DNA from: a bacterium
GTDB lineage: Bacteria > SM23-81 > DAOVCL01
Length of the DNA stretch: 35,687 bases
Direction of reading: 5' to 3'
Assembly (NCBI GenBank): GCA_029932675.1
Contig: JAOZPP010000031.1
Location: 1 to 35,687 of the forward strand
Every line of letters starts with the position of its first letter. Position 1 is the first letter of the stretch. Shown here in pieces: positions 445 through 35,687 of this stretch. The position numbers were made by a program, and so were the translations under genes. The notes beneath the pieces were generated by a model. The model was not told the origin of the DNA. It was given only the letters and a program-made list of their open reading frames with translations, and did no database searches.

Positions 445-447
445 CCG

Positions 448-1296: not shown

Positions 1297-1363
1297 GGTA
1301 GGGGACAAAAACAGACCCAAGCTTTTTGCTCAAGCGGAGAAGGGTTACTAGGGGGAGAGGAAT

Positions 1364-3716: not shown

Positions 3717-4047
3717 CGACGAGCCGGTGATCAGAAATCTCCTTTCCGATGTGCTCAGGGAAGAGGGATTGGATGTGGTTACGGTTACCGGAGGAGAGGA
3801 GGGGATAGAGAGGGTCAGGGAGGAGGAGTTTGACCTTGTCTTCACCGATATTCACCTTGCCGATGTGAACGGAATTGAGGTGCTCAAGGCATTGAGAGGG
3901 CTGAGGAGATGCCCCCCGGTAGTCCTTATGGACAGCTATCCAGATGGGTTGGTGGAGAGGGGGTTATCCTTGGGAGCCTGGGGTTGCTTGCATAAGCCCT
4001 TTGAGTTGTACAGGTTGAGGGCTATCTTGGAGGATCTGATAGGATGA
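3676..4047 (+). CDS. Single-domain response regulator (REC only)
   Basis: A 123-residue stand-alone receiver. It has the acidic pair D14/D15 (VLVIDDEP), phospho-acceptor D58 (VFTDIHL), a Ser in the Thr/Ser position (VLMDSYP) and the conserved Lys before PF (CLHKPFEL). No output domain follows. The open frame extends upstream to 3568, but those 36 codons lie fully inside the GGDEF gene and encode nothing receiver-like, so ATG 3676 is chosen. It ends in an ATGA overlap with the REC-GAF-HD-GYP gene. Such lone receivers act as phosphate shuttles or sinks, or bind a partner; which applies here is not visible. Confidence 0.88.
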   Translation: MERRIKRQRVLVIDDEPVIRNLLSDVLREEGLDVVTVTGGEEGIERVREEEFDLVFTDIHLADVNGIEVLKALRGLRRCPPVVLMDSYPDGLVERGLSLGAWGCLHKPFELYRLRAILEDLIG

Positions 4048-6733: not shown

Positions 6734-6781
6734 CGAAATGGACCATTAAGGTAGTACCCTTCAGGCCCGTCCGTTTTGATA

Positions 6782-6811
6782 TACCAAAATGTGACAGTTT
6801 GCTCTTTGGTA
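6782..6811. promoter_or_regulatory. Inverted repeat, possible activator binding site
   Basis: TACCAAA (6782-6788) and TTTGGTA (6805-6811) form a perfect 7-bp inverted repeat with 16 bp between the arms. It lies about 70-95 bp upstream of the -24 element, where an enhancer-binding protein site would be expected. Which protein binds it is inferred from position only. Confidence 0.4.
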
Positions 6812-6815
6812 AAAA

Positions 6816-6829
6816 TTTGTTGTAACAAA
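6816..6829. promoter_or_regulatory. Short palindrome upstream of the sigma54 promoter
   Basis: TTTGTT-GT-AACAAA has 6-bp perfect arms around a 2-bp centre. It lies 50 bp upstream of the -24 element and five bases after the TACCAAA/TTTGGTA repeat. It could be a second activator half-site or a binding site for another factor. Confidence 0.3.
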
Positions 6830-6878
6830 AACCCGTTGGTTAATAAAGGGTTAGGGCACTTCCCTCTCTGAATTTTTC

Positions 6879-6894
6879 TGGCACGGGACTTGCA
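6879..6894 (+). promoter_or_regulatory. Sigma54 (-24/-12) promoter
   Basis: TGGCACG-GGAC-TTGCA matches the sigma54 consensus TGGCACG-N4-TTGCW at every defined base, with the invariant GG and GC ten bases apart. Transcription would begin near 6905 and give a leader of about 30 nt before the lipoprotein gene. It directly follows the gene for a sigma54 activator. Confidence 0.88.
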
Positions 6895-6935
6895 ATTAAG
6901 GAATGTGGTGGAGGAAAATTAACCGGAGGTGTCCT

Positions 6936-7463
6936 ATGTTCAAAGAACATAAGTGGAAATTAATTAGCTTCGGGGGGGGCCTCCTTTTTACCCTTCTCCT
7001 CTATGCCGGATGTGGGCAGAAGGGGAACCCTACCGCCCCCAATCCAGTTTCCTCTCAGTTGAAGATCGTCACCTTAAAGCAAGATGAGTCGAGTTCAAGC
7101 AATACGACCTCAGTGAGGATATGTGCCGCGGAAGGAGGAGAGGTTGAGCTTAACGGTAATCGGCTGGAGATCCCTCCAGGAGCTCTCCCTGCGGATACGA
7201 CCATCACTATGATCTGCCCTAACCCAGATAAGGCAATGGTTCAGCTTAAGCCCAATCGGTTGGTTTTCCTCCGATCAGTCCTTCTCACCCTATCCTATGC
7301 TGAGGCCGAGGATCTCGATGAGGAAGCCCAACTTTCCATCTACTGGCAGAATCCGGATAACCAGGAGTGGGAGTGGATGGGGGGAAGGGATGACAAGGTG
7401 AAGGAGGAGGTAACAACCCAGATCGGGCACTTCTCCCGCTATGCACTTGCGGAGAGCTATTAG
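6936..7463 (+). CDS. ZU5-like domain lipoprotein under a sigma54 promoter
   Basis: A 175-residue predicted lipoprotein. ATG 6936 has GGAGGT (6925-6930) five bases upstream; an upstream in-frame ATG at 6903 has no comparable site and would overlap the transcription start. The N-terminus is basic then hydrophobic and ends in a lipobox-like LLYAGC with Cys26 (Tyr at -3 is unusual), followed by a low-complexity linker. Residues about 55-170 resemble a ZU5-like beta fold: GGEVELNG, LEIPPGALPADTTITM, then a VLLTLSYA strand, IYWQNP and a final GHFSRYALA. It is a monocistronic unit closed by a strong terminator. The role of the domain at the surface is unknown; ZU5-like modules are usually protein-interaction folds. 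Confidence 0.82.
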   Translation: MFKEHKWKLISFGGGLLFTLLLYAGCGQKGNPTAPNPVSSQLKIVTLKQDESSSSNTTSVRICAAEGGEVELNGNRLEIPPGALPADTTITMICPNPDKAMVQLKPNRLVFLRSVLLTLSYAEAEDLDEEAQLSIYWQNPDNQEWEWMGGRDDKVKEEVTTQIGHFSRYALAESY

Positions 7464-7480
7464 ATATTTGGTACTTCAGT

Positions 7481-7513
7481 AAAAAGCCACGGGTGAAACC
7501 GTGGCTTTTTTTA
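7481..7513 (+). terminator. Rho-independent terminator
   Basis: AAAAAGCCACGG (7481-7492) pairs perfectly with CCGTGGCTTTTT (7499-7510) around the loop GTGAAA, and the 3' arm runs into a T tract. It ends the lipoprotein transcript; the A-rich 5' arm would let it work in both directions. Confidence 0.93.
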
Positions 7514-7545
7514 TGTGATTCTTGGATAAACATTGGAAGATGGAG

Positions 7546-9309
7546 ATGATGAACTCCCGGGGACGCTTAAAAGAGGGGCTTATCCGCCTCAAGGAGAAAG
7601 GGGATAAGGCCCAGGAGGCCGCCAACTATAAGGATGCCTCTACATATTATACCTCAGCCATTACAGCCCTAAGGAGAGAAAGATCTACGGACTTACGGGA
7701 GTTGGAATTTGAGCTTCTGCTCAAGTTAGGAAAGGTTAATGACCTTTTAGGCGAGACTCATCAGGCGATGGAAAATTTCCAAAGCTCCTTAGGGTTGGGG
7801 GAGTTCGTTTATGCTCACCCCCTCTATCCAGAGCTCTTACGCCAGATGGGGCGGCTCTATGCGCGGAGGGGGGAGAGGGAGAAAGCGCGAAGGTTTCTCT
7901 CTCGCAGCATCAGGGCATTTGAGGAGAGGGGGAATCCGAAGGGAATGGCCGATGGTTATCTCTCTTTGGGAAACATAGCCTTTGAACGAGGGGATTGGAA
8001 GGGGGTGACAGAGTTTTTCAACCTTGCCCTTCAGATTGGAGAGAAGATGGGGGATTTTAAACTTATGGCCCATATTTATAACAACTTCGGCGCTATGTTC
8101 AACATCCAAGGCGACTGGGAGGAAGCCGTGGCTTATTACCGAAAGAGCAGTCGATTATATCGGAGGATTAAGGACGATTTCGGTTTGGCTCGTACTTATC
8201 ACAATATGGGGATGACCTTTGTTGATCAGAAGGATTACCAAACGGCAGACTACTATTTCACCAGAAGCCTGAAGATATCCGAGGCCAAGGGGATAGCCAG
8301 CCTAATGGCTACTACCTATCTGAGTAAGGCAGAGATCCTGGTTAAATCCTCTTGTTTGAGAGAGGCAAAGAAGTTCTGCGATGAGGCGGAGAAATACTTT
8401 AAAAGGCTGGAGGATGAATTAGGGATAGCTGAGGTAGAGAAATTGAGGGGGGTAATATTCAGGGAAGGGAAGAAGTGGAGACTGGCTGAAGATCACCTAA
8501 TGAGGAGCGCGGAGATAAATCGACGCGCCCAATGTCCTTTGGGCCTAGCCGAGGCCTATCGAGAGTTAGCGATTACTTGTCGACAAAAAGGGGAGAACGA
8601 AAAGGCCTTAAGCCTACTGGGAGAAGCTATAGAGCTCTTTAGGGATCTGAGAGCAGAAAAGGATTTGGAGGAGGTCAATAAAGTAGCCTCTCAGATAGAG
8701 GGGCTATATCTGAGGTTAGTGCGGTCGATGGGGACCCGGGTGGAAGCGAAGGATCCCTATACCCTAGGACATTCAGCAAGGGTGGCTCACTACTCATTGA
8801 GGATTGCCCAGAGGTTGGGGCTTTCCAGGGAAGAAGTTAAGGGGATTCTCACTGCAGCCTATCTGCACGACTTGGGAAAGATATTTATTAAATCAAACAT
8901 ATTAAGGAAACCAAGGAAATTAACCCCTCAAGAATACGAAGAGATAAAGCTCCATCCCGCCAAGGCATTGGAGATCTTGCATGATGTGAGGTTCCCCTGG
9001 GGGGTGGAGGAGATTATCCTCCATCATCATGAGAGGTGGGATGGAAAAGGCTATCCGGCGGGGCTTAAAGAGGAGGAGATCCCTTTGGGAGCGAGGATAA
9101 TAGCAGTGGCCGATTCCTTTGATGCGATGACCACCTCCCGTCCCTATAGGTCGGCTTTGAGTAAGGAGGAGGCCTTAGATGAGATAGAGGAAAAGTCAGG
9201 GATAATGTATGACCCTAAGATAGCCAAGACATTTTTAGCAATAATCGCTGAAGAGGGTAAGGAGAAGGTCGACTCCACGTTTGACTCGGTCTGGGGAAGC
9301 ATCCGCTGA
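7546..9309 (+). CDS. TPR repeat protein with C-terminal HD-GYP domain
   Basis: About 587 residues. The first 390 or so form tetratricopeptide-type helical repeats (for example GYLSLGNIAFERGDWKGV, HIYNNFGAMFNIQGDWEEA). The C-terminal domain is HD-GYP: GHSARVAHYS, HD pair near residue 441 (LHDLGKIF), a later His in LHPAKALEI, then the HHHERWDGKGYP signature and ADSFDAMT. All metal-binding motifs are present, so c-di-GMP hydrolysis is likely. There is no receiver or signal peptide. The frame opens at a TTG (7522), but ATGs at 7540, 7546 and 7549 follow; 7546 is preferred because GGAAG sits six bases upstream. It begins just after the lipoprotein terminator, so it is a separate transcription unit. 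Confidence 0.9.
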   Translation: MMNSRGRLKEGLIRLKEKGDKAQEAANYKDASTYYTSAITALRRERSTDLRELEFELLLKLGKVNDLLGETHQAMENFQSSLGLGEFVYAHPLYPELLRQMGRLYARRGEREKARRFLSRSIRAFEERGNPKGMADGYLSLGNIAFERGDWKGVTEFFNLALQIGEKMGDFKLMAHIYNNFGAMFNIQGDWEEAVAYYRKSSRLYRRIKDDFGLARTYHNMGMTFVDQKDYQTADYYFTRSLKISEAKGIASLMATTYLSKAEILVKSSCLREAKKFCDEAEKYFKRLEDELGIAEVEKLRGVIFREGKKWRLAEDHLMRSAEINRRAQCPLGLAEAYRELAITCRQKGENEKALSLLGEAIELFRDLRAEKDLEEVNKVASQIEGLYLRLVRSMGTRVEAKDPYTLGHSARVAHYSLRIAQRLGLSREEVKGILTAAYLHDLGKIFIKSNILRKPRKLTPQEYEEIKLHPAKALEILHDVRFPWGVEEIILHHHERWDGKGYPAGLKEEEIPLGARIIAVADSFDAMTTSRPYRSALSKEEALDEIEEKSGIMYDPKIAKTFLAIIAEEGKEKVDSTFDSVWGSIR

Positions 9310-16433: not shown

Positions 16434-16505
16434 GCGGGTGTAGCTCAGTGGTAGAGCCCCACGTTGCCAACGTGGTTGTCGTCGGTTCAAATCCGATCAC
16501 CCGCT
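16434..16505 (+). tRNA. tRNA-Gly (GCC)
   Basis: A full cloverleaf: acceptor GCGGGTG pairs with CACCCGC, the anticodon stem CACGT-type arm carries GCC at 16466-16468, and the T loop is GGTTCAAATCC. No 3' CCA is encoded. It is the first of three tightly spaced tRNAs. Confidence 0.96.
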
Positions 16506-16516
16506 CTCTCATTTCG

Positions 16517-16589
16517 GGCGGCATAGCCAAGTGGCTAAGGCAGAGGTCTGCAAAACCTCTATTCCCCGGTTCGAATCCGGGTGCCGCCT
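16517..16589 (+). tRNA. tRNA-Cys (GCA)
   Basis: Acceptor GGCGGCA pairs with TGCCGCC. Anticodon stem GAGGT/ACCTC encloses CTGCAAA with GCA at 16550-16552. T arm GGTTCGAATCC. CCA is not encoded. It lies 11 bases after tRNA-Gly. Confidence 0.96.
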
Positions 16590-16596
16590 CTTTAGA

Positions 16597-16683
16597 GCCG
16601 GGGTGGCGGAATTTGGTAGACGCAGCGGACTTAAAATCCGCTGTCCAATTTCGGACGTGCCGGTTCGAGTCCGGCCCTCGGCA
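16597..16683 (+). tRNA. tRNA-Leu (TAA)
   Basis: An 87-nt class II tRNA with a long variable arm. Acceptor GCCGGGG pairs with CCTCGGC (one G-T). Anticodon stem GCGGA/TCCGC encloses CTTAAAA with TAA at 16632-16634. CCA is not encoded. It is followed by an A8 run. Confidence 0.96.
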
Positions 16684-16689
16684 AAAAAA

Positions 16690-16768
16690 ATTCCCTGCTG
16701 GCGGCCAGGTTTAGTTTGGACTCTCAGATAGGGGCTAGTCCACAGCATATCCTGGCACAGCAGGGAAT
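16690..16768. other. Long nested inverted repeat after the tRNA cluster
   Basis: ATTCCCTGCTG (16690-16700) pairs perfectly with CAGCAGGGAAT (16758-16768). Inside, CCAGG (16705-16709) pairs with CCTGG (16751-16755), and GGACT (16718-16722) pairs with AGTCC (16737-16741). The result is a nested stem of about 21 bp. No T tract follows. It may be a processed or stable RNA, or an unusual tRNA-operon 3' structure. The surrounding 16684-17286 has no protein gene I can support. Confidence 0.55.
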
Positions 16769-16950
16769 CTGGGGGTGGTAAGCTTTGTGCGGAGGCCGTC
16801 TCCAAGGATATAAATTTTGCAATTCCTATGCCAAACGGGTAGCTTTTAATTTGACTTTCAAAACTTATTGCCTTTAAATATTTTACAAGCGTATCCTTTT
16901 TAAATCTTGGTTTCGACTTTCTTATAGAGATTGAAGTTTGTTGCCGTTTT

Positions 16951-16966
16951 TGGCAAAATTCTTGCA
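16951..16966 (+). promoter_or_regulatory. Second candidate sigma54 promoter
   Basis: TGGCAAA-ATTC-TTGCA keeps the invariant GG and GC with exactly ten bases between them and a perfect TTGCA; two of the seven -24 bases differ from TGGCACG. Transcription would start near 16977 and run into two hairpins and no sizeable open frame. Confidence 0.45.
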
Positions 16967-16995
16967 TATTGAGAAACGAGCGGAGCCCGAATTTG

Positions 16996-17128
16996 AAATT
17001 GAGGATGTAGAATTAAAATTGACCGTAATCGGCCAGCCGTCAAGTGTTCTTACCTGACGGCAAGGAGGAAAAGTGGCAGAATCGGGGTTCTGCCACCTCG
17101 TAGTTGGGAAAATTGAGAATGTAGAATT
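16996..17128. repeat. 19-bp direct repeat pair
   Basis: AAATTGAGGATGTAGAATT (16996-17014) recurs with one change at 17110-17128. A related AATTGAGGATGTGATT occurs at 27803-27818. All are intergenic and in the same orientation. Confidence 0.55.
17036..17096 (+). other. Two hairpins downstream of the candidate sigma54 site
   Basis: GCCGTCA/TGACGGC (17036-17061, 12-nt loop) and GTGGCAGAA/TTCTGCCAC (17073-17096, 6-nt loop). Between them is AAGGAGG (17062-17068), four bases before a GTG (17073) that opens a 25-codon frame to 17150. The micro-frame has no recognisable content, so I do not call it a gene. The layout could equally be a structured small RNA. Confidence 0.4.
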
Positions 17129-17197
17129 TAGGAATGGAAGAGGTTATTGATTGATGGTAGCGGGGTTTGGACTTCAGCCCCACACTCTTCCCTTTCT

Positions 17198-17278
17198 CAG
17201 CGACCAGCAATAAGCGGTCAGTCTTCAGTCAATTGTTATTGCTCTTCCTAAGCTCTGAAAACTGATGACTGGAGGCTG
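17198..17278. repeat. Inverted heptanucleotide-repeat element (family B)
   Basis: Five degenerate 7-bp units beginning CAG or AAG (17198-17232) are followed, after about 22 bp, by three units beginning CTG plus a partial one (17255-17278). The second set is the reverse complement type of the first (CAGNNNN versus CTGNNNN), so the element can fold back. The same unit type appears at 27462-27508 and inside the coding sequence at 20202-20229. Confidence 0.65.
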
Positions 17279-17286
17279 TTTCCAAA

Positions 17287-17360
17287 GGGCGATTAGCTCA
17301 GATGGTTAGAGTGCTTGCTTGACATGCAAGAGGTCACTGGTTCGAATCCAGTATCGCCCA
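17287..17360 (+). tRNA. tRNA-Val (GAC)
   Basis: Acceptor GGGCGAT pairs with ATCGCCC, anticodon GAC at 17321-17323 within CTTGCTT/ATGCAAG surroundings, T arm CTGGTTCGAATCCAG. CCA is not encoded. It lies about 600 bp from the other three tRNAs, directly after the heptad-repeat element. Confidence 0.96.
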
Positions 17361-17377
17361 CTACTCTGAGTATACAA

Positions 17378-17441: not shown

Positions 17442-19907
17442 TTACCGCAAAAGGACCATCTTCCTTGTTCTTTCAACCGCTAACCCATCACCTATCACCT
17501 GTAACCTACAAAAATAGATTCCGCTCCCCACATCTTGGCCGTGCGAACCCTTACCATCCCAGGTAACTTTATGAAGTCCAGGTGCTTGCTTCCCAGCAAC
17601 CAGGGTCCTCACCTCCTGGCCTGTTATGTTGTAAATCTTGAGGGTTGTAGGGCAGGGACGATCTACGATTAACGAGTAACGAATAACGGTATTTGCATTA
17701 AACGGATTTGGGTAGTTCTGTTGCAGTAAGAAAACCTCAGGCAAACTATGAGGGTCTTCTTCAGGTGGAACCTCCGTATCCATATGTAGGCTGTAATGGA
17801 AGGGACAGGGATTCAAGAAGCTCTGGCTGGTATCTATGAAGCTGGCCATCCAGACCGGCAAGGGCTTTGGGTTGTCACTCGTCTGTATCTCCTGCCACTG
17901 TTCGTCGGTTAATCTCTCTGAAATCGGCTGGGTGAACTCATAATAGGAGAAGATGGCCCCCTTGGTCACCTTTACTGTGTCCTCCACAGATACGATCACA
18001 AATATCTCCAGTGGATAGCCAATTCCCTCCTCTAAACAGGTAAAAGTGACATAGGCATCGGTATGCACATCGGCGATCACGGCCATCGCATCGTCAATGT
18101 CGTTCTCTATCTGCCCGGATATTTCTGGTGGAAAGGTGACGATCTCTTCTATCTTCTCCCCGAAATGGCAGAGAAGATCATACTCCTCCTCGCTCAGAGC
18201 TTGATTGGTCAGCTCCTTTATGGAAATATCCTTCAGGGACAGGAGCAGCGTCTCCAGGTCCTCCAACCTCGTTCTGAACTCATCGAGCAACAGCCCTCTG
18301 GTTTCGAAGCCGGTTATCATAAACCTGGCCAACGAGGCCAACCTGGCATACAGATAAGGGTTGGGCTCGACATATCCCTTTGTAAACCAACTCTGTGGAG
18401 GACCTCCTTCTGTCCCACTCTGTTTGGCATACAAAATCGTGTCGTGCCTCAGCTCTCCCCAGGAGCCCAGAGAGGTGGAGAGTTCTTTATCGGTCCACGC
18501 CTGGTTTTGCATAAAGGGAGGATAGCCTTCCCCCTTAGGAAAAAGAAATGGCATAAGGCAATAGAGCCAATTCCAATACAGATTTTGAGCCCAGAGGGAG
18601 TCGAGGAGAGACTTAAATTCAACCTTAAGAGAATCCATCATCTCGGAATAGCCTAAATGGCTGGTCTCATGATAGATCTCATCCAGGATCTGATAGGCCC
18701 TTTCAGAGCCAAGAATGGACATAACATCCAAGCCCTTGGGCATAAGTCTATCTACAAAAGGGGCAACCAGCCTATCGAACATATAAGAATCAGGGATGAA
18801 CCTCTGTCCCATAAACCTAAAACCCTTGGGTGTCCAGGTGGTTATCATTGGACCAGGGAGCTTGTCGGCCTCCACCAAAAATTCGTTGAGCAGAACCTCG
18901 TTACCCAGGCTGTCCACCCTCAAATTCGCAAAATCGGCTCCATAGACCTGTTTGGCGATAGAAGTATACTGGTAGATGTTCAGATCATCAGACTTTCCCA
19001 CAAAGAAGACGGTGGGATCATAGATCCTGGCCCAACTATCCAAGGCCGGCTCCCCCTCTACATCGACGCTGTTCAATGCCTGGGTAAGCAATATCGCCTG
19101 TAGGGTCTGGGGGAGGGCTATATTAGGGCAATGGTCTGTATTTCTCACGGCAAATGAGATCCTGCCATACCACATCATTGACCTGAAATACCTCTTCAAA
19201 ATCTCCTTTCTGGTGTAGTGACCTCTGGGAAGATATTGGCTGTAGTCCTCCCAATAGCAGAAGATAGGGGAATACTCATAGAATTCGTGGGCCTCAATGA
19301 GGGAAAGTTCTGCACCAACCAGACTGTCCACATAGGAGGGAATGACCGTTGTGCTGTCCAGAAGCACGCTTCCCACCGCGAAATAGGCCACATTCTTTCG
19401 AGCCGCCTCCTTAACATCCGGGTCAGTTGCCTCCGCATACATCGCTTCAGCCTTAGCCAGCATCGCCTCGTTCAGAGCACTCAAATCGTCGGTAAACTCC
19501 TGCACCTCCAGTATCCTGAGCATATAGTCGTAGAGGATGTGATAGGTATGAAGCACAGCATCGGTGGTCACAAAAGCGGGAGTTCTTATATCACCGCACT
19601 CATTGTAGACATCGTAGATCTGCTTGTAGTGGGATGGTTTGACCACAAAGCCATTCTGCAGAAGCAAGGCTTTGTCAGCATCGCTAAAGGTGAAATCGTT
19701 GAAATTAACCACATTTGAAAAGTCTGGCTCAATTGTGTAAGGCTCAACACAGGGCTCCACATCCACCAGATAGGGATGATAGGTGCCAAACTCCGTCTCC
19801 ACATCCTCGGTGATGTCGGCAATCATCTGAGCTGCAACATGGCCTGACCAGAAAAAGATACCAAGAAGGAGAAGGGAAATGGCCAGGAAATTTTTAAACT
19901 TTTCCAT
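17442..19907 (-). CDS. DUF3160 exported protein with C-terminal sorting domain
   Basis: An 821-residue exported protein. A signal peptide (MEKFKNF, hydrophobic core, cut near HVAAQ) leads into a DUF3160 domain of unknown function: LLQNGFVVKPSHYKQIYDVY and FVTTDAVLHTYHILYDYML are family hallmarks around residues 84-132. The last 85 or so residues are a FlgD-like/type A sorting domain with QNYPNPFN, TLKIYNITGQEV, WDGKGSHG and RKMVLLR, as in proteins exported by type IX-like systems. The start is ATG behind GGAGGT (minus strand). It is last in a co-directional series, 77 bp after the PD40 gene. Two stretches of its sorting domain are encoded by 7-bp-period repeats (17475-17509, 17659-17686). Confidence 0.9.
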   Translation of the reverse strand: MEKFKNFLAISLLLLGIFFWSGHVAAQMIADITEDVETEFGTYHPYLVDVEPCVEPYTIEPDFSNVVNFNDFTFSDADKALLLQNGFVVKPSHYKQIYDVYNECGDIRTPAFVTTDAVLHTYHILYDYMLRILEVQEFTDDLSALNEAMLAKAEAMYAEATDPDVKEAARKNVAYFAVGSVLLDSTTVIPSYVDSLVGAELSLIEAHEFYEYSPIFCYWEDYSQYLPRGHYTRKEILKRYFRSMMWYGRISFAVRNTDHCPNIALPQTLQAILLTQALNSVDVEGEPALDSWARIYDPTVFFVGKSDDLNIYQYTSIAKQVYGADFANLRVDSLGNEVLLNEFLVEADKLPGPMITTWTPKGFRFMGQRFIPDSYMFDRLVAPFVDRLMPKGLDVMSILGSERAYQILDEIYHETSHLGYSEMMDSLKVEFKSLLDSLWAQNLYWNWLYCLMPFLFPKGEGYPPFMQNQAWTDKELSTSLGSWGELRHDTILYAKQSGTEGGPPQSWFTKGYVEPNPYLYARLASLARFMITGFETRGLLLDEFRTRLEDLETLLLSLKDISIKELTNQALSEEEYDLLCHFGEKIEEIVTFPPEISGQIENDIDDAMAVIADVHTDAYVTFTCLEEGIGYPLEIFVIVSVEDTVKVTKGAIFSYYEFTQPISERLTDEQWQEIQTSDNPKPLPVWMASFIDTSQSFLNPCPFHYSLHMDTEVPPEEDPHSLPEVFLLQQNYPNPFNANTVIRYSLIVDRPCPTTLKIYNITGQEVRTLVAGKQAPGLHKVTWDGKGSHGQDVGSGIYFCRLQVIGDGLAVERTRKMVLLR
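17475..17509 (-). repeat. Five heptad repeats within coding sequence (family C)
   Basis: Exactly five 7-bp units with plus-strand pattern (A/C)ACCNNT/C tile 35 bp inside the DUF3160 protein's sorting domain. On the coding strand they read as AGGTNAN-type units, encoding LQVIGDGLAVE just before the last strand. The PD40 gene has the same family at the same place (20016-20050). Confidence 0.75.
17659..17686 (-). repeat. Four heptad repeats within coding sequence (family A)
   Basis: Four 7-bp units of plus-strand form CGANTAA (first unit CGATCTA) tile 28 bp. On the coding strand they are CGTTANT-type and encode RYSLIVDR, the loop after the YPNPFN strand. The same family is at the matching place in the gene at the window end (35580-35607). 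Confidence 0.75.
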
Positions 19908-19984
19908 TTAAAACACCTCCTTTCAAATCAGAAAAATTTTTATTAACACCTTAAACTACAGGAAATTACAGCCGATATCACCAT

Positions 19985-21889
19985 TCACCTGAGTAGAACC
20001 ATCTTCCTGGTTTTTGTTACCTTTAACCTGTCACCTATAACCTCTAACCTGTAGATATAGACCCCACTGGAGACCTCCCTGCCAAAGTTATCCCTTCCAT
20101 CCCAACAGACCTCGTAATAACCAGCTTTCTGGTCTTCATCCACCAGAGTCTTTACCACCTGAGCCAAGATGTTGTAAATCTTTAGGGTGGTGCGGTGTGG
20201 CCTGACCGCTGACAACTGATAGCTGATCGCTGTAGTCGAATTGAACGGATTGGGGTAGTTGGGGAAAAGGGCAAATCTGTCAGGGATTTCATTAGGATGT
20301 TTCGGCTCCTTTACCGATGAATTCGTCTTCACTCTTACTTCGCCAGAATAGCCGCTCTCGCTACCAAAGCTATCTGTAGCCGTGATTATGTAAAAATAGA
20401 CAGTATTGGCGGTTACATTTGTGTCCAGATAAAAGGTTGTCCTTAAGGTACCAAGCATATCGGTAGGAATAAATCCGCTAAGAGTGTCACGATATATGGA
20501 ATAATAGGCCAAATCAGGCTCTTTGTTTCTTGCCCAGCTCAAAATAACTCCCAAATCCTTCCCAGTTGTGTCGGCAGAGATGCTATCCGGGCAGGCGGGT
20601 GGAATAACCTCCGGCTGGATCTCCCTCATCCCCCCGGTGGGCGAATTTCCGATGACATCCAGGGTGAACCTCAGAGGAACCCCAAAAACATCCCTGGCCG
20701 AATCAACCTCTAAGCAATAGATGTCACAATCTCCATCTTTGTCTGAGGAAAAATAGATGTGATCGAACTGAGGTGAGGAAAAATCGGGAGCTAAATAGAC
20801 GGGATACATATTATCCCCAGAGCCATAATCCTCAAACTCTATCGTCAGACTTTTCCCATGCACCCCGTTTGGATCCATAGTGAGGATATGGAATGTAGGC
20901 TCTGAATTTGCCAACCCCTTCCACTCCGCCTCCTGAGCCCGGGAGCAAAGAACCAGCGACTCTCCACCTGGACTCCAGCGAGGGCAACCAGCATCACCTT
21001 GGAGGCTGTCTGTTATGCATTCAACCTGCGAAGGGATGCTTAGATCCATCTTGTAGATCTGGTAGATGGTATCCCTTTGGGTATCAAAGGCGAGCTGATC
21101 TCCACAGGGTGAGAAGTCGGGGTTACCATCATAGTCAGGGTTTGTGGTCAATTGGGTGGGGGACCCGCTTCCATCGCTCTCCATAACAAATATGTCGTAG
21201 TTGCAGAACTGATCAGAGCTATATGCTATCTTTGAGCCATCATAGGACCAAGAGGGGCTAACATCGGTGTAGGTATTAAAGGTGAGCCTGATCAGATCTC
21301 CCCCGTCGAGACTTCTCATCGAGTAAAGCTCGAAGTTCCCATCTCGATTGGAGGAGAAGACTATTCTCGTCCCATCCGGTGAGAGGTCCGGGGTGATGTC
21401 AATTGCTGGGTTAGTGGTTAGCCTCACCCGATTATCGCCAGCGCTGTCTCCATCGGCATCCACTGCATCCATTCTCCAGATGTCCCATCCCTCGACGAAG
21501 ACGATCCAGTTGTTGGGGAGGACATCTATTACCTGAGAGGAGTCCGACTCGATGGAATCGCTGTTTAATGCCGCGACAAAATAGCTGTAGAGGGTATCAT
21601 TGATCAACCCATGGTCCACATAGAAGGTATCGGTGACGGTGGAATCGATCTTCTCAAAGGTAGCCTCACCCAAAAGCTTTCGGTAGATGTTATAGCTGAG
21701 AGGAGGATCCCCAGGTGGGGGAGCCCAGCTCAATTTAGCCGAATGGTTGCCGGCCTGGATATAGAGGGAAGGTATGGTTGGGTTGATCGAAGTTGATTTT
21801 GAGTATAAATCTCCATAGATGATCAATAATAATTCCAATAGAACCCCGAGAAAGACGATTTTCCTCCTGTGCAATTTTATATTTAGCAT
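19985..21889 (-). CDS. Fn3 / PD40 beta-propeller exported protein with sorting domain
   Basis: A 634-residue exported protein. N-terminus: basic then hydrophobic (HRRKIVFLGVLLELLLIIYG). A fibronectin III-like domain (about 40-125, LSWAPPPGDPPLSYNIYR), then WD40-like PD40/TolB propeller repeats (DITPDLSPDGTRIVFSSNRD, DVSPSWSYDGSKIAYSSD, GNPDFSPCGDQLAF), a second Fn3 domain (about 440-530) and a FlgD-like/type A sorting domain (FPNYPNPFN, TLKIYNILAQ, WDGRDNFG, RKMVLLR). The start is ATG with GGAGGT five bases upstream. It follows the BNR-repeat gene by 53 bp in the same direction. Binding function is not known. Heptad repeats encode two loops of the sorting domain. Confidence 0.9.
   Translation of the reverse strand: MLNIKLHRRKIVFLGVLLELLLIIYGDLYSKSTSINPTIPSLYIQAGNHSAKLSWAPPPGDPPLSYNIYRKLLGEATFEKIDSTVTDTFYVDHGLINDTLYSYFVAALNSDSIESDSSQVIDVLPNNWIVFVEGWDIWRMDAVDADGDSAGDNRVRLTTNPAIDITPDLSPDGTRIVFSSNRDGNFELYSMRSLDGGDLIRLTFNTYTDVSPSWSYDGSKIAYSSDQFCNYDIFVMESDGSGSPTQLTTNPDYDGNPDFSPCGDQLAFDTQRDTIYQIYKMDLSIPSQVECITDSLQGDAGCPRWSPGGESLVLCSRAQEAEWKGLANSEPTFHILTMDPNGVHGKSLTIEFEDYGSGDNMYPVYLAPDFSSPQFDHIYFSSDKDGDCDIYCLEVDSARDVFGVPLRFTLDVIGNSPTGGMREIQPEVIPPACPDSISADTTGKDLGVILSWARNKEPDLAYYSIYRDTLSGFIPTDMLGTLRTTFYLDTNVTANTVYFYIITATDSFGSESGYSGEVRVKTNSSVKEPKHPNEIPDRFALFPNYPNPFNSTTAISYQLSAVRPHRTTLKIYNILAQVVKTLVDEDQKAGYYEVCWDGRDNFGREVSSGVYIYRLEVIGDRLKVTKTRKMVLLR
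20016..20050 (-). repeat. Five heptad repeats within coding sequence (family C)
   Basis: Five 7-bp units ending ACCT on the plus strand (NTNACCT) tile 35 bp and encode LEVIGDRLKVT of the sorting domain. Position and unit number match 17475-17509 in the neighbouring gene. Confidence 0.75.
20202..20229 (-). repeat. Four heptad repeats within coding sequence (family B)
   Basis: Four 7-bp units CTGANNN tile 28 bp (followed by CTG) and encode the SYQLSAVR loop after the YPNPFN strand. This is the same protein position as 17659-17686 but a different repeat family, the one also found between genes at 17198-17278 and 27462-27508. Confidence 0.75.
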
Positions 21890-21942
21890 CTTACACCTCC
21901 ATAGCGTAATATGAGTCCCCTTTTACTTAGACCCATCTGTCT

Positions 21943-23229
21943 TTATCTGATGAGGACAAGTTTCCCAGTGGAAGTTAGCTTTTTCGACCTCATTTGACAG
22001 AGATATATCCCGCTGGGAAGATCATGTCCTTCCTCATCCTTGCCGTCCCAGAGGATGGTATGGCGGCCAGGTCTCTGGTTCCTATCCAAGAGGGTTCTCA
22101 CCTTTCCCCCAAAAATGTTGAAGATCGAAATCTCGGTCCTTCTCGGATGGCTTCCACCCAGGTAATAGGGGATTTGCGTATAAGAATTGAAGGGATTGGG
22201 GTAGTTGGCAAAAAGCTCGCATCTATTGGGATAGGGATGAGGGGCTGGGGGTTGGGTAACTCCAGCCAGGGTGTCTGTGTAGCTCCATACTCCCTGGTCG
22301 GTCCCTGCGTAGATCAATCTGGGGTCTTGATAGTCCAAGGCCAAGCAGTGAACATTAGTGTTGGATAGACCATCATTAATGAAAGTCCAACTCTTTCCAT
22401 CTGGGCTTCTTGCAACCCCCCATTCTAAGGAAGCAAGATACATAACCCTGAGAGAGGAGATCTGAAAGGAGGATGCCTTCAACATCCATTCTATAACTGT
22501 CCAATTTTCTCCCCTGTCCCTCGATTTGTAGAGGCCGTCAGAGTAAGAACCCGCTCCCATTGTGGCATAGATTATGTTGGTCGTATCCGGATCGATGAGC
22601 AATGAGGTTACATTAATTGGCGATCCAAGGCATAAGTTCCAATCCTTTCCCCCATTATCCGATCGATAGACCCCTGAGGGCGTCCCCGCATAGATGAGGT
22701 TAGAGTCTTGAGGAGAGATGGCTAAACACCAGACTGAGGAGTCAGTCAAGTTTTGATTAACCCAGCTCCAACTTGTGCCCGCCTGAGTGGTTTTGGCTAC
22801 CCCCTCAATGAATGAACCAGCGTAGATAAAGCTGGGATTGCGTGGATAGATAGCCAGACAACTGGGGTAGAAGAGCCAAAGGGAGACCCTCCAGTTGTCT
22901 CCTCCGTTGGTGCTCTTGTAGATACCATCACTTCTGCTCCCATGGCCACAGGCTCCATATACCACTATGCAGTCGAATCGGGGATCAAACCCGAATCCAT
23001 AAACCGGAAGGCCCAGACACTCAAGAGTATCCCACTCCTCTCCCTCATTGAAGCTTCGATAACCCCCCCTTTCGGTGCCTGCAAAGATTGGGCCTGAAAT
23101 CTCTGGATAGGTACCAATGGCCAAGCAGGTATCCTGCCCTAGTCCCAGGAAGTTCCATCCCCCCTGAGAAGGTATGGAGATGGCAAGAACGGCGATAAAG
23201 GTAACTATAGATAGATAATAGCCTTTTAT
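21943..23229 (-). CDS. BNR/sialidase-like repeat exported protein, probable AUA start
   Basis: Predicted 428-residue exported protein built of BNR-type propeller repeats (GIYKSTNGGDNWRV, IYAGTPSGVYRSDNGGKDW, GLYKSRDRGENWTV, IYAGTDQGVW), ending in a type A/FlgD-like sorting domain (FANYPNPFN, WDGKDEEGHDLPSGIYL, GKLVLIR). The first ordinary start in frame, TTG at 23124, gives no signal peptide. The frame continues upstream without a stop through a credible signal sequence (KGYYLSIVTFIAVLAIS, then IPSQGG) to an ATA codon at 23229-23227. This ATA lies six bases after GGAGGT (complement of 23236-23241), as in its neighbours. AUA initiation, or an ATG lost by mutation or sequencing error, is inferred. 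No heptad repeats are seen in this copy. Confidence 0.82.
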   Translation of the reverse strand: MKGYYLSIVTFIAVLAISIPSQGGWNFLGLGQDTCLAIGTYPEISGPIFAGTERGGYRSFNEGEEWDTLECLGLPVYGFGFDPRFDCIVVYGACGHGSRSDGIYKSTNGGDNWRVSLWLFYPSCLAIYPRNPSFIYAGSFIEGVAKTTQAGTSWSWVNQNLTDSSVWCLAISPQDSNLIYAGTPSGVYRSDNGGKDWNLCLGSPINVTSLLIDPDTTNIIYATMGAGSYSDGLYKSRDRGENWTVIEWMLKASSFQISSLRVMYLASLEWGVARSPDGKSWTFINDGLSNTNVHCLALDYQDPRLIYAGTDQGVWSYTDTLAGVTQPPAPHPYPNRCELFANYPNPFNSYTQIPYYLGGSHPRRTEISIFNIFGGKVRTLLDRNQRPGRHTILWDGKDEEGHDLPSGIYLCQMRSKKLTSTGKLVLIR

Positions 23230-23292
23230 TTTCGCACCTCCATTTTGAGAAAGATTGAAATGGCTTTCACTCTAATCTCCTTATTCTATCAA

Positions 23293-26115
23293 CTAATCCT
23301 TCCCTATGAGAATAAATGGTGCCCAATAGTAGGGATGGCTCCATTTCTCACTTCCCTTCAACATCCCCACCTGGGCATCCCTGAGGGCTTGAGACTTTGA
23401 TTTCCCTTGGCGCAGACCGCGATAAAATGTTTCCATCAACGCTTTCGTCGACTTATCATTTACTGCCCAGAGGCTAACCAGAAGGGAGGATGCTCCCGCA
23501 TAGAGAAATCCCCTGCTCATCCCTAAGACCTCGTCTCCTAAGGCTAAGGTATTGAGGCCGGTATCGCACCCACTTAGGGTGACCAGTGAGGCATTCAGCT
23601 TGAGGTCATAAACTTCCCCCACTGTCAGCCAGCCATCGGCCAGTTTCAACCTGGAGAAGAGGGGGCTATCCTCTCGGAAGACCCCATGGGAAGCGATGTG
23701 CAGGATGTTGCATTCCTCAGCATATCGCTCTAAGACCTTCCTTGTGGCCAATCGTCCGGTGAAGGTTAAGGCCTCGGGGAAGAGGGCCTTAAGGGTTTCT
23801 ATCTCCTCAGTCACCGCCGGAATCCTCTCATCCGGAACACCGATGGCCAACAAAGGTCCACCCTTCCTGCTTTCCCTTTGAGAGCACAGCTTGAAGATGT
23901 GGGAGCTGGGATAATAGCAAATCCGATGTTTTTCGATGAGGAACTCTTCCCCATCGTGGAGGGCGCCAAAGGGAAGAAGGTGGAGTAGGGAATGGGGGAT
24001 GATAATCAGACGAGGGTACTCCCTGAGGTTGGCTATGGGCTCGATTAAGATTCGATGGAGGGAGCGGAGGTAATCCTTGGTAGCCAAACCTATCCAGGCT
24101 AACCTCTCCCTTCCGGGTTTAGGCCCCCACATCAGTTTGGTGAGCTGAAAACGGAACCTTTCCAGAAGATCGCCTACCTCCCTACTTGAGGAAAGGCCCT
24201 GATAGATGGCCAAATCGTGCTTGGTTAAGGAGAAGAGGTGAACTTCATCGTTGGCAACATAATATTCTAATAACATTTCTCCCTCACCGAGGAGGTCTCT
24301 GATCTCCGGTAGGGAAACCCCGGTTGACCTGAGCAGACCCCTCCCCAGAGGAATTGCCGCCTCCCTATCCTCGATAAGCCGTTGCAGCCTCCTCTCCCGG
24401 CTTCTTATGGCTTGGAAGACCTTCACCCCACCTCCCCTTTCCCCCCCTTTGCCTTCCTCCTCAGCTTTGCTATACCACCAGTTCAGCTCTTCCCTTAACT
24501 TCTCTACCGTTTTCTGGAATTTCTCGTCTTTCCCTTTGAAGTCCAGTTTCTGGGAGAGGAGATCAACCAAGGCCCGGGATTTGGCCTTCTCCACATAATA
24601 GAGAGCTTCCTCGTCCTTGCCTAACTCTAGGCAGAGGGAAACCATATCATGAAAGGCCTCCAGCTTATCTTGGAGGAAGGAGATGGTCAGTTTCTCCCTT
24701 CCCCTTAAGGAGACCTGCATCTTCTCAATCTCCTCAATAGAACTGCGCAACCAACTGTAAGCCTTATCCTTTGCCCCCCTCTTGTAGGAGATTTTCCCTA
24801 ACCCATAATAGGCCTGGTGCAGGATCCAAGGGATCTTATACTCTCTTTGGAGGGAGTGGTAGAGCCCCTCCGCCTCATCAAGCTCTCCCGATTTCAGGTG
24901 GGCAGCGGCAGCAACCAGTTTAGCTGTAGCAGTGAGCAGCCCTGGGCCGCTTACTTCGGTGAACAAATCGATCGCTTCTGAACTCAGCCTCAAAGCTTTG
25001 GCATAATCCCCCTGTGCCAAAAGAATCTTGGACCTCTCCAGCTTAATGCCGGCAATCTTTGTCCTCAACCCCTCCTCCTCAAAGACCTCTTCCGCCCTCT
25101 GGAAGAGCTCATCCGCCTTGGAAAACTCCCCTAATCCCCCATAGGCTACCGCCTGGTCATACCAGGTGAGGGCCAGGCTATACCTCATCCCTTCTTCCTG
25201 GAACACCGTCTGGGCGAAACTGTATGATTCTATCGTCTCCTCATAGAGGCCAAGCCGTAAGTAGGTATTGGCTATGCAGGTATCCACATTTGCCTGAGCC
25301 CTCTTCAATCCCAATATCCGATAGGCATCCTTGGCCTCCCTGTAGGCTTCCAATGCCTTTCCATATTGCCCCATATAGTAGTAGATGTTGCCCGTGCTAT
25401 AATCGACATTAGCTAACTGCCTTTTCAGCTTCATTTCCTGGAAGAATCGCCTGGCCTCCTCGCTCTCGGCCAAGGCCTCCCTGAACCTGTTTAGGTGGGG
25501 GAGGACTATGGACTTATTCATCTTGGTTTGGGCCAATTCTAACCTTTTCTCGTTGGCGGCAAAATATGATTCAGCCCTCTCTAAGAGTTGGAGGGATTTG
25601 GCAAACTCATTTCGCCAGAAATGAATGGAGGCGGTGATCCTCTCCAGTTTCGCCAGTTCATATTCTGCCCGGTGGCTCCTCAGGAGGGAGGTAGTCTTTT
25701 GGGAGAGTTGAAGGGCGTCGCGGTATCTTCCGATAATCCTTAAGGCCTCTACCTTGCCCACATTGGCTATGGCCATTTGGAGTTCGTTACCTTGGGCACG
25801 GAAGAACTCAACTGCCTCATCGACGAGGTTGAGGGATTCCTGATGGGCTCCCAAAGCGCACAGGGCATTGGCCTTGGCTCGCTTGCATATTGCAATAAAG
25901 AATGGATTACCTAAGGCTTGAGAGGCGGTAAGGGAAGTTTCTGCTATTTTCAACGCCCGAGCTGGATCGGAGGAGAGGTCTTCCTCAACCTTTCTGCAAA
26001 TCAGCTCAATCACCTCTTCGTTGAATTCCTCCCCCCTCTCCTTTACGAAGCTAGTTATCTCTTCTCCGCGCCCCAACCTCAACAATTGTTCAACTAATCC
26101 CTTTATCTGAGACAA
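23293..26115 (-). CDS. TPR-CHAT caspase-like protease
   Basis: A 940-residue cytoplasmic protein. Residues about 1-520 are a long series of TPR-like helical hairpins (for example NVDYSTGNIYYYMGQYGKALEA), followed by a coiled linker with a Glu/Gly-rich patch (about 545-570). A C-terminal CHAT domain (about 690-938) follows. The CHAT catalytic dyad is present: His810 in LHIASHG and Cys850 in TLSGCDTG, plus SLWAVNDKST and HPYYWAPFILIG typical of the family. CHAT proteins are separase/caspase-related peptidases. The ATG start is directly adjacent to the zinc-finger protein's stop, so it is co-transcribed with the sigma/anti-sigma genes. Candidate substrate is the zinc-finger protein or another regulator; that is inference. 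Confidence 0.92.
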   Translation of the reverse strand: MSQIKGLVEQLLRLGRGEEITSFVKERGEEFNEEVIELICRKVEEDLSSDPARALKIAETSLTASQALGNPFFIAICKRAKANALCALGAHQESLNLVDEAVEFFRAQGNELQMAIANVGKVEALRIIGRYRDALQLSQKTTSLLRSHRAEYELAKLERITASIHFWRNEFAKSLQLLERAESYFAANEKRLELAQTKMNKSIVLPHLNRFREALAESEEARRFFQEMKLKRQLANVDYSTGNIYYYMGQYGKALEAYREAKDAYRILGLKRAQANVDTCIANTYLRLGLYEETIESYSFAQTVFQEEGMRYSLALTWYDQAVAYGGLGEFSKADELFQRAEEVFEEEGLRTKIAGIKLERSKILLAQGDYAKALRLSSEAIDLFTEVSGPGLLTATAKLVAAAAHLKSGELDEAEGLYHSLQREYKIPWILHQAYYGLGKISYKRGAKDKAYSWLRSSIEEIEKMQVSLRGREKLTISFLQDKLEAFHDMVSLCLELGKDEEALYYVEKAKSRALVDLLSQKLDFKGKDEKFQKTVEKLREELNWWYSKAEEEGKGGERGGGVKVFQAIRSRERRLQRLIEDREAAIPLGRGLLRSTGVSLPEIRDLLGEGEMLLEYYVANDEVHLFSLTKHDLAIYQGLSSSREVGDLLERFRFQLTKLMWGPKPGRERLAWIGLATKDYLRSLHRILIEPIANLREYPRLIIIPHSLLHLLPFGALHDGEEFLIEKHRICYYPSSHIFKLCSQRESRKGGPLLAIGVPDERIPAVTEEIETLKALFPEALTFTGRLATRKVLERYAEECNILHIASHGVFREDSPLFSRLKLADGWLTVGEVYDLKLNASLVTLSGCDTGLNTLALGDEVLGMSRGFLYAGASSLLVSLWAVNDKSTKALMETFYRGLRQGKSKSQALRDAQVGMLKGSEKWSHPYYWAPFILIGKD

Positions 26116-26778
26116 TTAATTACTCTCCTGCCTGGTTGGAAAAGGTTCCTCCACCATCAATTCCCTTACCTCCACTTCCCTCACCCCCAAGTCTAACTTC
26201 AACCTATATTGACCAGGGGCCAAATCCCGGAAGACAAACTCGCCCCATCTGTCTGTCGTGCCTGACTTAATGAGGGTCTCTCCTTGGAGTAGCTTCACCC
26301 CTGCCTGCTGCAGATCGGCGACATCCCCCTTCTGCAAACTGACCTCTCCGAAGAGGGTCCTTCCTTTCCCTCTGCCACCAGCTTGAAGGAGGAGCTCCAG
26401 ATCGATTTCCTCGGCCCGATAGAGGAGATAAACCGGCCTAATTCCCCCGGTTCTTGTCTCCGCATATCCAGGCAATCGGCGGCTGTCCAGGACCAACTTG
26501 GCCACTGAACTGCGCACAGTCGGCTTAGCTTGCCGAAAGGCCAGCCACGCCCTCCGAACGATATTGGACGGTGGTTCCTCAAGGAGGGAACCTTTGCCTA
26601 TTCTTAGGTCTTCCTCCAAGAACCTTAGATCGCCGGTACAGGCCGGACATCCCTCCAGAAGGTGAGCTCTGATCTTCCTCTCCATCTGCTGGGGGAGTAG
26701 GCCTTCCAAGTGATCTATTAGGTTTTTAAATGATGGACATTTCACCTTAGACTTTAACCCCCTTATTTGTCTCTTCAT
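26116..26778 (-). CDS. Soluble zinc-finger anti-sigma-like protein
   Basis: A 220-residue protein with an N-terminal zf-HC2/ZAS-like module: Cys14, then His39 24 residues later, Cys44 and Cys47 (HLLEGCPAC). Spacing is H-x4-C rather than the usual H-x3-C. There is no membrane segment, so it is cytoplasmic. The C-terminal half (about 150-215) is a beta-rich domain like carboxypeptidase-regulatory/Cna-B folds (GTTDRWGEFVFRDLAPGQYRLKL). An in-frame ATG at 26847 exists, but those 23 codons lie inside the sigma gene and look like a shadow of it; ATG 26778 is 14 bp past the sigma stop with AGGAAG upstream. Encoded between an ECF sigma factor and a CHAT protease, it is the predicted sigma inhibitor. 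Confidence 0.78.
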   Translation of the reverse strand: MKRQIRGLKSKVKCPSFKNLIDHLEGLLPQQMERKIRAHLLEGCPACTGDLRFLEEDLRIGKGSLLEEPPSNIVRRAWLAFRQAKPTVRSSVAKLVLDSRRLPGYAETRTGGIRPVYLLYRAEEIDLELLLQAGGRGKGRTLFGEVSLQKGDVADLQQAGVKLLQGETLIKSGTTDRWGEFVFRDLAPGQYRLKLDLGVREVEVRELMVEEPFPTRQESN

Positions 26779-26792
26779 ATAAATAGAGCTTC

Positions 26793-27362
26793 CTAATCGG
26801 TAAAATGGGACATCTCCTGCCAGATTTTTTTCAATTTTCTGAGGCATCTGCTTCTCAACTTAGCGATGCTCCCCTTCTTTACCCCCAAAATTTTGGCTAT
26901 CCTTTGATGGGATAGCTTTTTTCCGGGACGGAAGAAAAGGTAGTAGATCAGCTTCTGACACCGCGGTGAGAGCAGGGCCAGCGCCTCCCTAATCCTCTGC
27001 TCCCTCTCTAAGGCTTCGACCACCTCCAACGGGAGCTCCCATCTGGGTGGCAGCTCATCCGGCGAAGGGGACCTTCTCTCTCTCCTCCGAAGGAGCTTCC
27101 AGCACTCCCTTGAGGTAGTGGTAATCAGCCAGGAACTGATTTTGGACGAATCCCTCAGCCAGCCAAGCTTCTCTACCAAGAGGAGGCAGACATCCTGAAA
27201 GATGTCCTCGGCATCCGACTTGGAAAGGCCGTACTTGAAGGGGATGGAGAAGATGAGCCCTTTATACCTGTTGATTAATGCCTTCCAAGCCAGGTGATCC
27301 CCGGAGATGCAGGCCTCAACGAGCTGCTTATCGGTGAATAGGTTATATTTATCCTTGGACAC
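26793..27362 (-). CDS. ECF-type RNA polymerase sigma factor
   Basis: A 189-residue sigma70-family factor of the extracytoplasmic-function class. Region 2: LVEACISGDHLAWKALINRY, the DAEDIFQDV core-binding helix and SSWLITTTSRECW. Region 4: EALALLSPRCQKLIYYLFF and the helix-turn-helix SHQRIAKILGVKKGSIAKLRSR. The frame extends upstream to 27461, but GTG 27362 is preferred: a good -35/-10 pair ends six bases before it, so the upstream codons would not be transcribed and the message may be leaderless. It heads the run sigma, zinc-finger protein, TPR-CHAT, then three exported proteins. Autoregulation is plausible but not shown. Confidence 0.88.
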   Translation of the reverse strand: MSKDKYNLFTDKQLVEACISGDHLAWKALINRYKGLIFSIPFKYGLSKSDAEDIFQDVCLLLVEKLGWLRDSSKISSWLITTTSRECWKLLRRRERRSPSPDELPPRWELPLEVVEALEREQRIREALALLSPRCQKLIYYLFFRPGKKLSHQRIAKILGVKKGSIAKLRSRCLRKLKKIWQEMSHFTD

Positions 27363-27368
27363 TATTCC

Positions 27369-27397
27369 AATATACCTACAATTGGATATAAAATCAA
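27369..27397 (-). promoter_or_regulatory. Promoter of the sigma/zinc-finger/CHAT operon
   Basis: On the minus strand, TTGATT (27397-27392) and TATATT (27374-27369) are 17 bp apart. The predicted transcription start falls at or next to the GTG 27362 start codon. Confidence 0.6.
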
Positions 27398-34940: not shown

Positions 34941-34981
34941 ACAATGAGGATGGCTGTTATTAGATAAAGGAAGTGATGTTA

Positions 34982-35687
34982 ATGAAGAAAAGGTGCTTTT
35001 TGATGTTTTTAGGGTTAGTCATTATTTTGTCACTTTCCTCTGTTTTTGCTCAAGATATAACCTTTGGCCCCAGCATCAGGGTGGATGATGATACCACGGG
35101 GCAGCCTCAGGTTCGGTGTGGTATGGCTACTTATGGGGATAGTATCATCTACATAGCCTGGTGTGACTGTAGGGACCATCTCCATACTGGTAAAAACAAC
35201 ATCTACTTCTCCAGCTCCTTTGATGGAGGAAGAACCTGGACGAAGAACCTGAACATAACGAACAACTCCACTCCAGACCCAGATTTCCCGGATATGGAGA
35301 CGGACGATGCGGGGAACATCTACCTGGTGGAGTGACCCCATCAGGGTCGATGACAGCACGATGTTTTTTTGTGAAATACCCTCTGTAAGTATTGTTGATG
35401 ATGGACGAATATATGTTGTGTGGGATGGTGATGACCTGCCAGAGCCAGAGGATCTGTGCATTTTCTTCTCCTGGGCGCAGGGGCCGGATTGGGTGGAGGA
35501 GAGGGGAGATGAGGTTTCCATCCCCCGGTTCAGGCTGGCTCAGAACTATCCCAACCCGTTTAACGAAAATACCGTGATTCGTTACTCGTTGCTCGTAGAT
35601 CGTCAAAGGCAATCAGGGGAGGGGGGTTCACTAGCACGAACTACGAGCACGAGCTACGTTAGTTTAAAGGTCTACAACATTTTGGGG
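34982..35687 (+). pseudogene. Frameshifted exported BNR-like protein with sorting domain, truncated by window end
   Basis: ATG 34982 (AAGGAAG upstream) opens a signal peptide (MKKRCFLMFLGLVIILS, ending SVFAQ) and a BNR/sialidase-like segment with SFDGGRTW and DDAGNIYLV. The frame stops at 35333-35335. From about 35326 the +1 frame continues without a break (WSDPIRVDDSTMFF, DDGRIYVVWDGDD) into a type A sorting domain (AQNYPNPFN, then SLKVYNILG) at the window edge. Restoring two bases near 35331 would rejoin IYLV to WSDP, as BNR repeats require. This could be a true decay, an assembly error or phase variation. The loop of the sorting domain is enlarged by a heptad-repeat element. Confidence 0.75.
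35580..35658. repeat. Full fold-back heptad element inside coding sequence (family A)
   Basis: Four units CGTTACT, CGTTGCT, CGTAGAT and CGTCAAA (35580-35607) are followed after about 28 bp by reverse-complement-type units ACGAACT, ACGAGC and ACGAGCT (35636-35655) plus ACG. It inserts about 15 extra residues between the RYSL and SLKVYN strands of the sorting domain compared with the other copies in this window. Confidence 0.65.

Follow-up and report, generated by a model that had tools for sequence, protein, structure and literature searches.

Six genes on the minus strand occupy positions 17442-27362 of the window, the 35,687-nucleotide stretch of DNA that was analyzed in this study, and, as the earlier note had described, they encode an ECF sigma factor, a zinc-finger protein, a TPR-CHAT protein, and three proteins with FlgD_ig tails (Table 1). 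With the start codons chosen in the present analysis, the intergenic gaps are 14, 0, 63, 53, and 77 nt. The first gene product carries Sigma70_r2 (3.8e-10; residues 62-130 in ORF numbering) and Sigma70_r4 (1e-7; residues 160-212) without sigma3, and its score of 82.8 bits against TIGR02937 (cut-off 42.9) places it among the ECF sigma factors. Four tRNA genes (Gly, Cys, Leu, and Val) are located on the plus strand at 16434-17361, just past the end of the operon, and a regulatory cluster at 145-9309, recognized by sequence alone, appears to encode an HDOD-like protein, a histidine kinase, a GGDEF response regulator, a sigma-54 activator, and HD-GYP-like proteins, one of which carries TPRs.

Table 1. 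Features of the six-gene operon (positions in the window)
Feature	Position	Strand	Evidence
ECF sigma factor (sigma2 + sigma4), GTG start	26793..27362	-	TIGR02937 2e-23, Sigma70_r2, Sigma70_r4
Candidate anti-sigma, ZAS-like and soluble, Ig-like domain at the C-terminus	26116..26778	-	Profile match to RsiW and RslA; AF2 model
Zinc ligands C14, H39, C44, C47	26638..26739	-	Alignment A3
Segment D98..R109, hypothetical recognition or cleavage segment	26452..26487	-	Alignment A3 and model
Cytosolic TPR-CHAT caspase/separase-like protease, TTG start	23293..26115	-	CHAT 8e-67; AF2 pLDDT 88
Codon of catalytic His810	23686..23688	-	Alignment
Codon of catalytic Cys850	23566..23568	-	Alignment
Exported BNR/Vps10-like protein, FlgD_ig tail, probable ATA start	21943..23229	-	Domain search and start-codon analysis
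Exported fn3/PD40 beta-propeller protein, FlgD_ig tail	19985..21889	-	Domain search
Exported DUF3160 protein, FlgD_ig / type A sorting tail	17442..19907	-	DUF3160 1e-195, TIGR04183 25.5 bits
Sigma-70-like promoter match, chance level	27369..27397	-	Consensus scan against shuffles

The second gene product is an anti-sigma homolog with an added Ig-like domain, and it may inhibit the sigma factor. A profile of 23 such middle proteins (alignment A3) matches the solved anti-sigma factors RsiW (1.2e-5) and RslA (9.3e-5), in agreement with the earlier description of a zf-HC2-like protein and its reading as the inhibitor of the sigma factor; the window protein alone scores below Pfam zf-HC2, and some of its relatives reach it. 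It had also been called membrane-free, and with a best 19-residue hydropathy of 0.56 it contains no transmembrane segment. H39, C44, and C47 are invariant among the 23 proteins, and position 14 is Cys in the window and His in the relatives, both of which are able to bind zinc. In the window protein the motif reads Hx4Cx2C and the first ligand is Cys, as compared with Hx3Cx2C in class I anti-sigma factors, and the ligand positions are conserved in all 23 proteins. The Hx3Cx2C motif itself is missing from many genuine class I anti-sigma factors (PMC7406223). In the AF2 model (pLDDT 86), four helices (residues 17-25, 30-41, 45-63, and 71-83, mostly at high pLDDT) form an N-terminal helical bundle, which is followed by a beta domain. 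Foldseek matches to this model are dominated by Ig domains, and no anti-sigma factor or helical bundle was retrieved. D98 and R109 are also invariant among the 23 proteins; residues 100-115 are mostly loop and modeled at lower confidence, with D98 at the edge of the loop, where a beta strand ends, and R109 inside it. That R109 may be a cleavage site is a guess, and a structural cause of its conservation would be equally likely.

The third gene product matches the CHAT domain at 8e-67 (Table 1), the protein has no signal peptide, and the His810/Cys850 dyad, previously noted as intact, is invariant in an alignment of 18 proteins including that of the window. The best fold match to its AF2 model is Csx29 (8eey, with Csx30; 1.8e-17), followed by separase. 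Against the Csx29 family model NF041237, the protein scores 70.4 bits, with the CHAT region alone matched, and because the cut-off is 300, it is not a member of the Csx29 family. No RAMP proteins were found in the source genome (97% complete), and hence no Cas7-11. Because the CHAT fold is nearest to Csx29 and the genome lacks RAMP proteins, the idea of a CRISPR-free relative that works like Csx29 is reasonable, as the earlier note had proposed.

The conservation of this gene arrangement was examined by seeking CHAT genes in 386 genomes from across the bacterial families, of which many are fragmented assemblies, and by reading 120 neighborhoods, selected by CHAT score, with the genes of the relatives taken as simple ORFs. 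An ECF gene lies within 1.5 kb of CHAT in 47 cases, whereas the 3-9 kb background predicts 2.95 (P 2.7e-39). When the distance is extended to 2 kb, an ECF gene accompanies 50 of the 126 CHAT genes; the other 76 have none nearby, some of these being cut by contig ends. Six of the middle proteins, including that of the window, define a soluble subfamily in which an Hx4Cx2C ZAS-like finger is combined with an Ig-like C-terminal part and membrane segments are absent, and a zinc-finger model built from these six alone (A2) retrieved new members in many families and several phyla. At the held-out A2 loci with room for the neighboring gene, which include a minority of the matches from the last of the zinc-finger-model searches, the ECF gene is adjacent on the upstream side in 20 of 20 (including L194, counted by hand, where the ORF caller had merged genes), and CHAT is located downstream in 15 of 17. 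The two exceptions are the second copy in L204, which runs towards CHAT from the opposite side, and L210, in which the next gene encodes a protein whose start resembles a signal peptide. Another broad search, largely of the same genomes, gave no additions. The earlier proposal had been made to depend on the trio being kept as a unit, and these counts bear it out: judged from gene order, the ECF, zinc-finger, and TPR-CHAT genes are a genuine conserved unit.

The source genome contains three CHAT genes in total. A second CHAT-ECF-zinc-finger set with a different gene order is found at L031 (3261-8657) of this genome; there, the start of the CHAT protein resembles a signal peptide, and the zinc-finger protein carries TPRs at its C-terminal end. 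The one same-genus genome examined was without a CHAT match, and a same-phylum genome gave a single match with no ECF gene nearby; among close relatives the distribution of the unit is therefore patchy, by loss or transfer. In the CHAT-domain tree, which is noisy and holds only 7 subfamily members after a length filter had removed most of them, the subfamily was not recovered as one clade, and Csx29 lies on a long branch. At L119 (6989-10517), the CHAT protein of which is close to that of the window in this tree, a small Ig-like protein without a zinc finger is encoded directly before CHAT, with no ECF gene and with a large FlgD-tailed protein upstream.

The last three gene products had been described as signal-peptide proteins with type A/FlgD-like sorting domains. 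FlgD_ig was found above its cut-off in all three, so that this part of the description stands; on the other hand, the cut-off of TIGR04183 (T9SS type A, 23 bits) is reached by the third protein alone, the other two scoring 21.5 and 20.8 bits, and gene 4 possesses a signal peptide only with a rare ATA start (23229-23227). This codon has GGAGG close upstream, and TTG at 23124, the first start codon of an ordinary kind, falls within the mature part of the protein; alternatively, an assembly error is possible. A mini-ORF, MEVRK (23226-23243), has a stop codon that overlaps the putative ATA start. The source genome (3.03 Mb) contains 130 FlgD_ig tails, often clustered, together with a SprA_N protein (1.4e-37), which suggests a type IX-like export route. 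Because of these 130 tails, the sorting tails are weak evidence here, and the view that three of them are a special feature of the operon was rejected. Positions 34973-35687 of the window encode a further exported protein, whose sorting tail contains QNYPNPFN; at the end of the contig its gene seems to be broken into two frames.

In the soluble subfamily, the gene after CHAT usually encodes an S8 subtilase with a signal peptide or lipobox. By a strict motif, subtilases were found at 11 of the 20 subfamily loci, as compared with none of 40 other ECF-CHAT loci and a single one of 66 loci at which CHAT has no ECF gene. Pfam S8 was confirmed in 10 of 10 proteins, a biased rate since those tested were picked as likely candidates, and three of them also match FlgD_ig; a FlgD-type tail is present on the exported subtilase at some loci (L204, L207, and L208). 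In an incomplete check with a single pattern, the catalytic Asp and His motifs were seen in most of the subtilases and the Ser motif in 5 of 9. In the window operon, no subtilase follows CHAT, and the three exported proteins are found in that place; S8 genes occur elsewhere in the source genome, with no membership of the relatives' group implied. The exported cargo belongs to the pattern, and subtilase is its usual member. The physical link to exported cargo put forward in the earlier note thus survives in that an exported fourth gene recurs, but the conserved partner is an S8 subtilase and not a sorting-domain protein as such. At L134 and L124, TPR-CHAT is followed by a subtilase-like gene with no ECF or zinc-finger gene nearby.

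Two kinds of gene arrangement suggest a direct functional link between the zinc-finger protein and CHAT. At L087 (6296-10410), the TPR-CHAT protein carries two Hx3Cx2C motifs in an N-terminal fusion, and its gene lies 12 bp behind an ECF gene; N-terminal zinc motifs occur in 2 of 129 CHAT proteins (L087 and L139), as compared with 0.25 expected in shuffles, and no ECF gene was seen with the motif-bearing CHAT of L139. At L204 (374-6237) and L123 (8172-13659), two ECF-zinc-finger pairs surround one CHAT gene. Throughout the subfamily, with one doubtful call, the anti-sigma has no membrane segment and CHAT no signal peptide, and in most other trios the middle protein spans the membrane and the CHAT protein bears a hydrophobic N-terminus, as called by hydropathy heuristics rather than by signal-peptide or membrane-helix predictors. 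The compartment match was rejected as independent evidence, as it holds only for the subfamily against the rest (P 0.61 outside the subfamily).

The promoter situation differs from that described in the earlier note, which had placed one good promoter at the operon head: 10 promoter-like sites were counted, as compared with 11.5 +/- 3.7 in shuffles. In relatives of one phylum, an ECF-type motif of approximately AGGTGGG-N13-CTGATA is present upstream of the ECF gene, and in four relatives GGAACA-N18-TCTAA precedes the conserved start of ECF by about 104 nt, with sense-strand matches upstream of ECF only being counted; these motifs suggest autoregulation. Neither was found upstream of the window operon, and no copy of either was seen in the interval that separates CHAT from the exported gene. 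Matches of motif A on the opposite strand within the trio were discarded as promoters and probably reflect coding conservation.

Taken together, these data are best read as a proteolytic switch, to which we assign a probability of about one half, in which the CHAT protease would cut the anti-sigma and free the sigma factor for transcription of the operon, including the exported genes. The zinc-finger protein would hold the ECF sigma factor inactive, and the TPR superhelix of CHAT could sense an unspecified intracellular cue. Activated CHAT may then cut the zinc-finger protein, perhaps in the R109-bearing loop, a cut that would part the sigma-binding bundle from the remainder of the Ig-like domain. 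Once released, the sigma factor would transcribe its own operon, which leads to an S8 subtilase in most relatives or to three surface proteins in the window. Several observations count against such a switch: most CHAT genes (76 of 126) have no ECF gene nearby, L124 and L134 pair CHAT with a subtilase-like gene in the absence of ECF, D98 may be conserved for structural reasons in view of its position at a strand end, the region upstream of the window operon is without the motifs of the relatives, and the subfamily is not one clade in the CHAT tree.

It is rather unlikely that the trio is real and the three exported genes of the window are merely unrelated neighbors, a reading that is compatible with either account of the trio given here. 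In its favor, the 3.03-Mb genome has 130 FlgD_ig tails, often clustered, and L031, the second ECF-CHAT trio of the same genome, has no such cargo alongside. However, subfamily relatives regularly have an exported subtilase next, sometimes with the same tail type, and the gaps in front of the three genes of the window measure 53-77 nt, where no promoter of their own rises above chance.

An unlikely alternative on present evidence is that CHAT is the output, the ECF/zinc-finger pair sensing redox or metal in the manner of RsrA or ChrR, with CHAT and the exported proteins as effectors. Cytoplasmic class I anti-sigma factors are often redox sensors, and approximately 72% of the soluble ones carry the zinc motif (PMC7406223); the conserved zinc ligands and the presence of CHAT and an exported gene in one gene run would also fit. 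Nevertheless, the zinc-finger-CHAT fusion in L087 and the double pairs around one CHAT in L123 and L204 suggest that the two proteins are directly linked, and redox sensing alone does not explain the conserved Ig-like domain and loop. A defense or cell-death cassette, in which TPR-CHAT would detect an invader and act on several proteins with the sigma branch as one arm, as in type III-E CRISPR, is very unlikely. The Csx29 precedent (PMC10028731), the occurrence of CHAT domains in proposed conflict systems (PMC10907252), and the patchy distribution, with a same-genus genome without a CHAT match, are set against PADLOC matches for 0 of the 6 proteins, the absence of RAMP proteins, and conserved cargo that is exported.

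The proteolytic switch has one close precedent, in which the CHAT protein Csx29 cuts Csx30, a binder and inhibitor of an ECF sigma factor (PMC10028731, PMC9729208). In a literature search for ECF-zinc-finger-CHAT combinations, this type III-E system (Csx29/Csx30/CASP-sigma, Craspase) was the sole direct parallel; the search covered mostly open literature, and an earlier description is possible. Both systems encode together a TPR-CHAT protein with a His-Cys dyad, an ECF sigma factor, and its inhibitor or putative inhibitor. In contrast to Craspase, the candidate inhibitor of the window is a ZAS homolog with an Ig-like domain instead of Csx30, exported cargo follows, the source genome has no RAMP/Cas7-11, and the CHAT protein falls below the Csx29 cut-off. 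Class I ZAS anti-sigma factors such as RsiW, RslA, RsrA, and ChrR share the zinc ligands, the helical bundle, and the ECF-adjacent gene position with the window protein, whereas one extra motif residue (Hx4Cx2C), the Ig-like C-terminal domain, and the TPR-CHAT protease in the same gene run set the latter apart. By analogy, the proposed logic of cutting an anti-sigma to free a sigma factor would resemble the proteolysis of RseA by DegS/RseP and of RsiP by signal peptidase (PMC10028731, PMC8844934), but all of the window parts are predicted to be cytosolic, and the caspase-like protease is encoded in the same operon. Separase/securin likewise combines an alpha-helical superhelix with a caspase-like protease and gives a strong fold match to the window CHAT, although that system is eukaryotic, with a different substrate and regulation.

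More tentatively, and with the odds somewhat against it, the window operon could represent a widespread CRISPR-free class in which the secretion of subtilases or surface proteins is induced once a soluble ZAS-Ig anti-sigma has been cut by a cytosolic TPR-CHAT protease, Craspase being a CRISPR-captured version of an older CHAT-sigma logic. If this is the case, caspase-like control of sigma factors would be a general mode of bacterial signaling and not a peculiarity of CRISPR, and many orphan TPR-CHAT proteins would gain a candidate substrate in the next gene. It would also give a hint at the origin of the Csx29-sigma branch of Craspase, and the purpose of the switch might be guessed from its conserved partnership with an exported subtilase.
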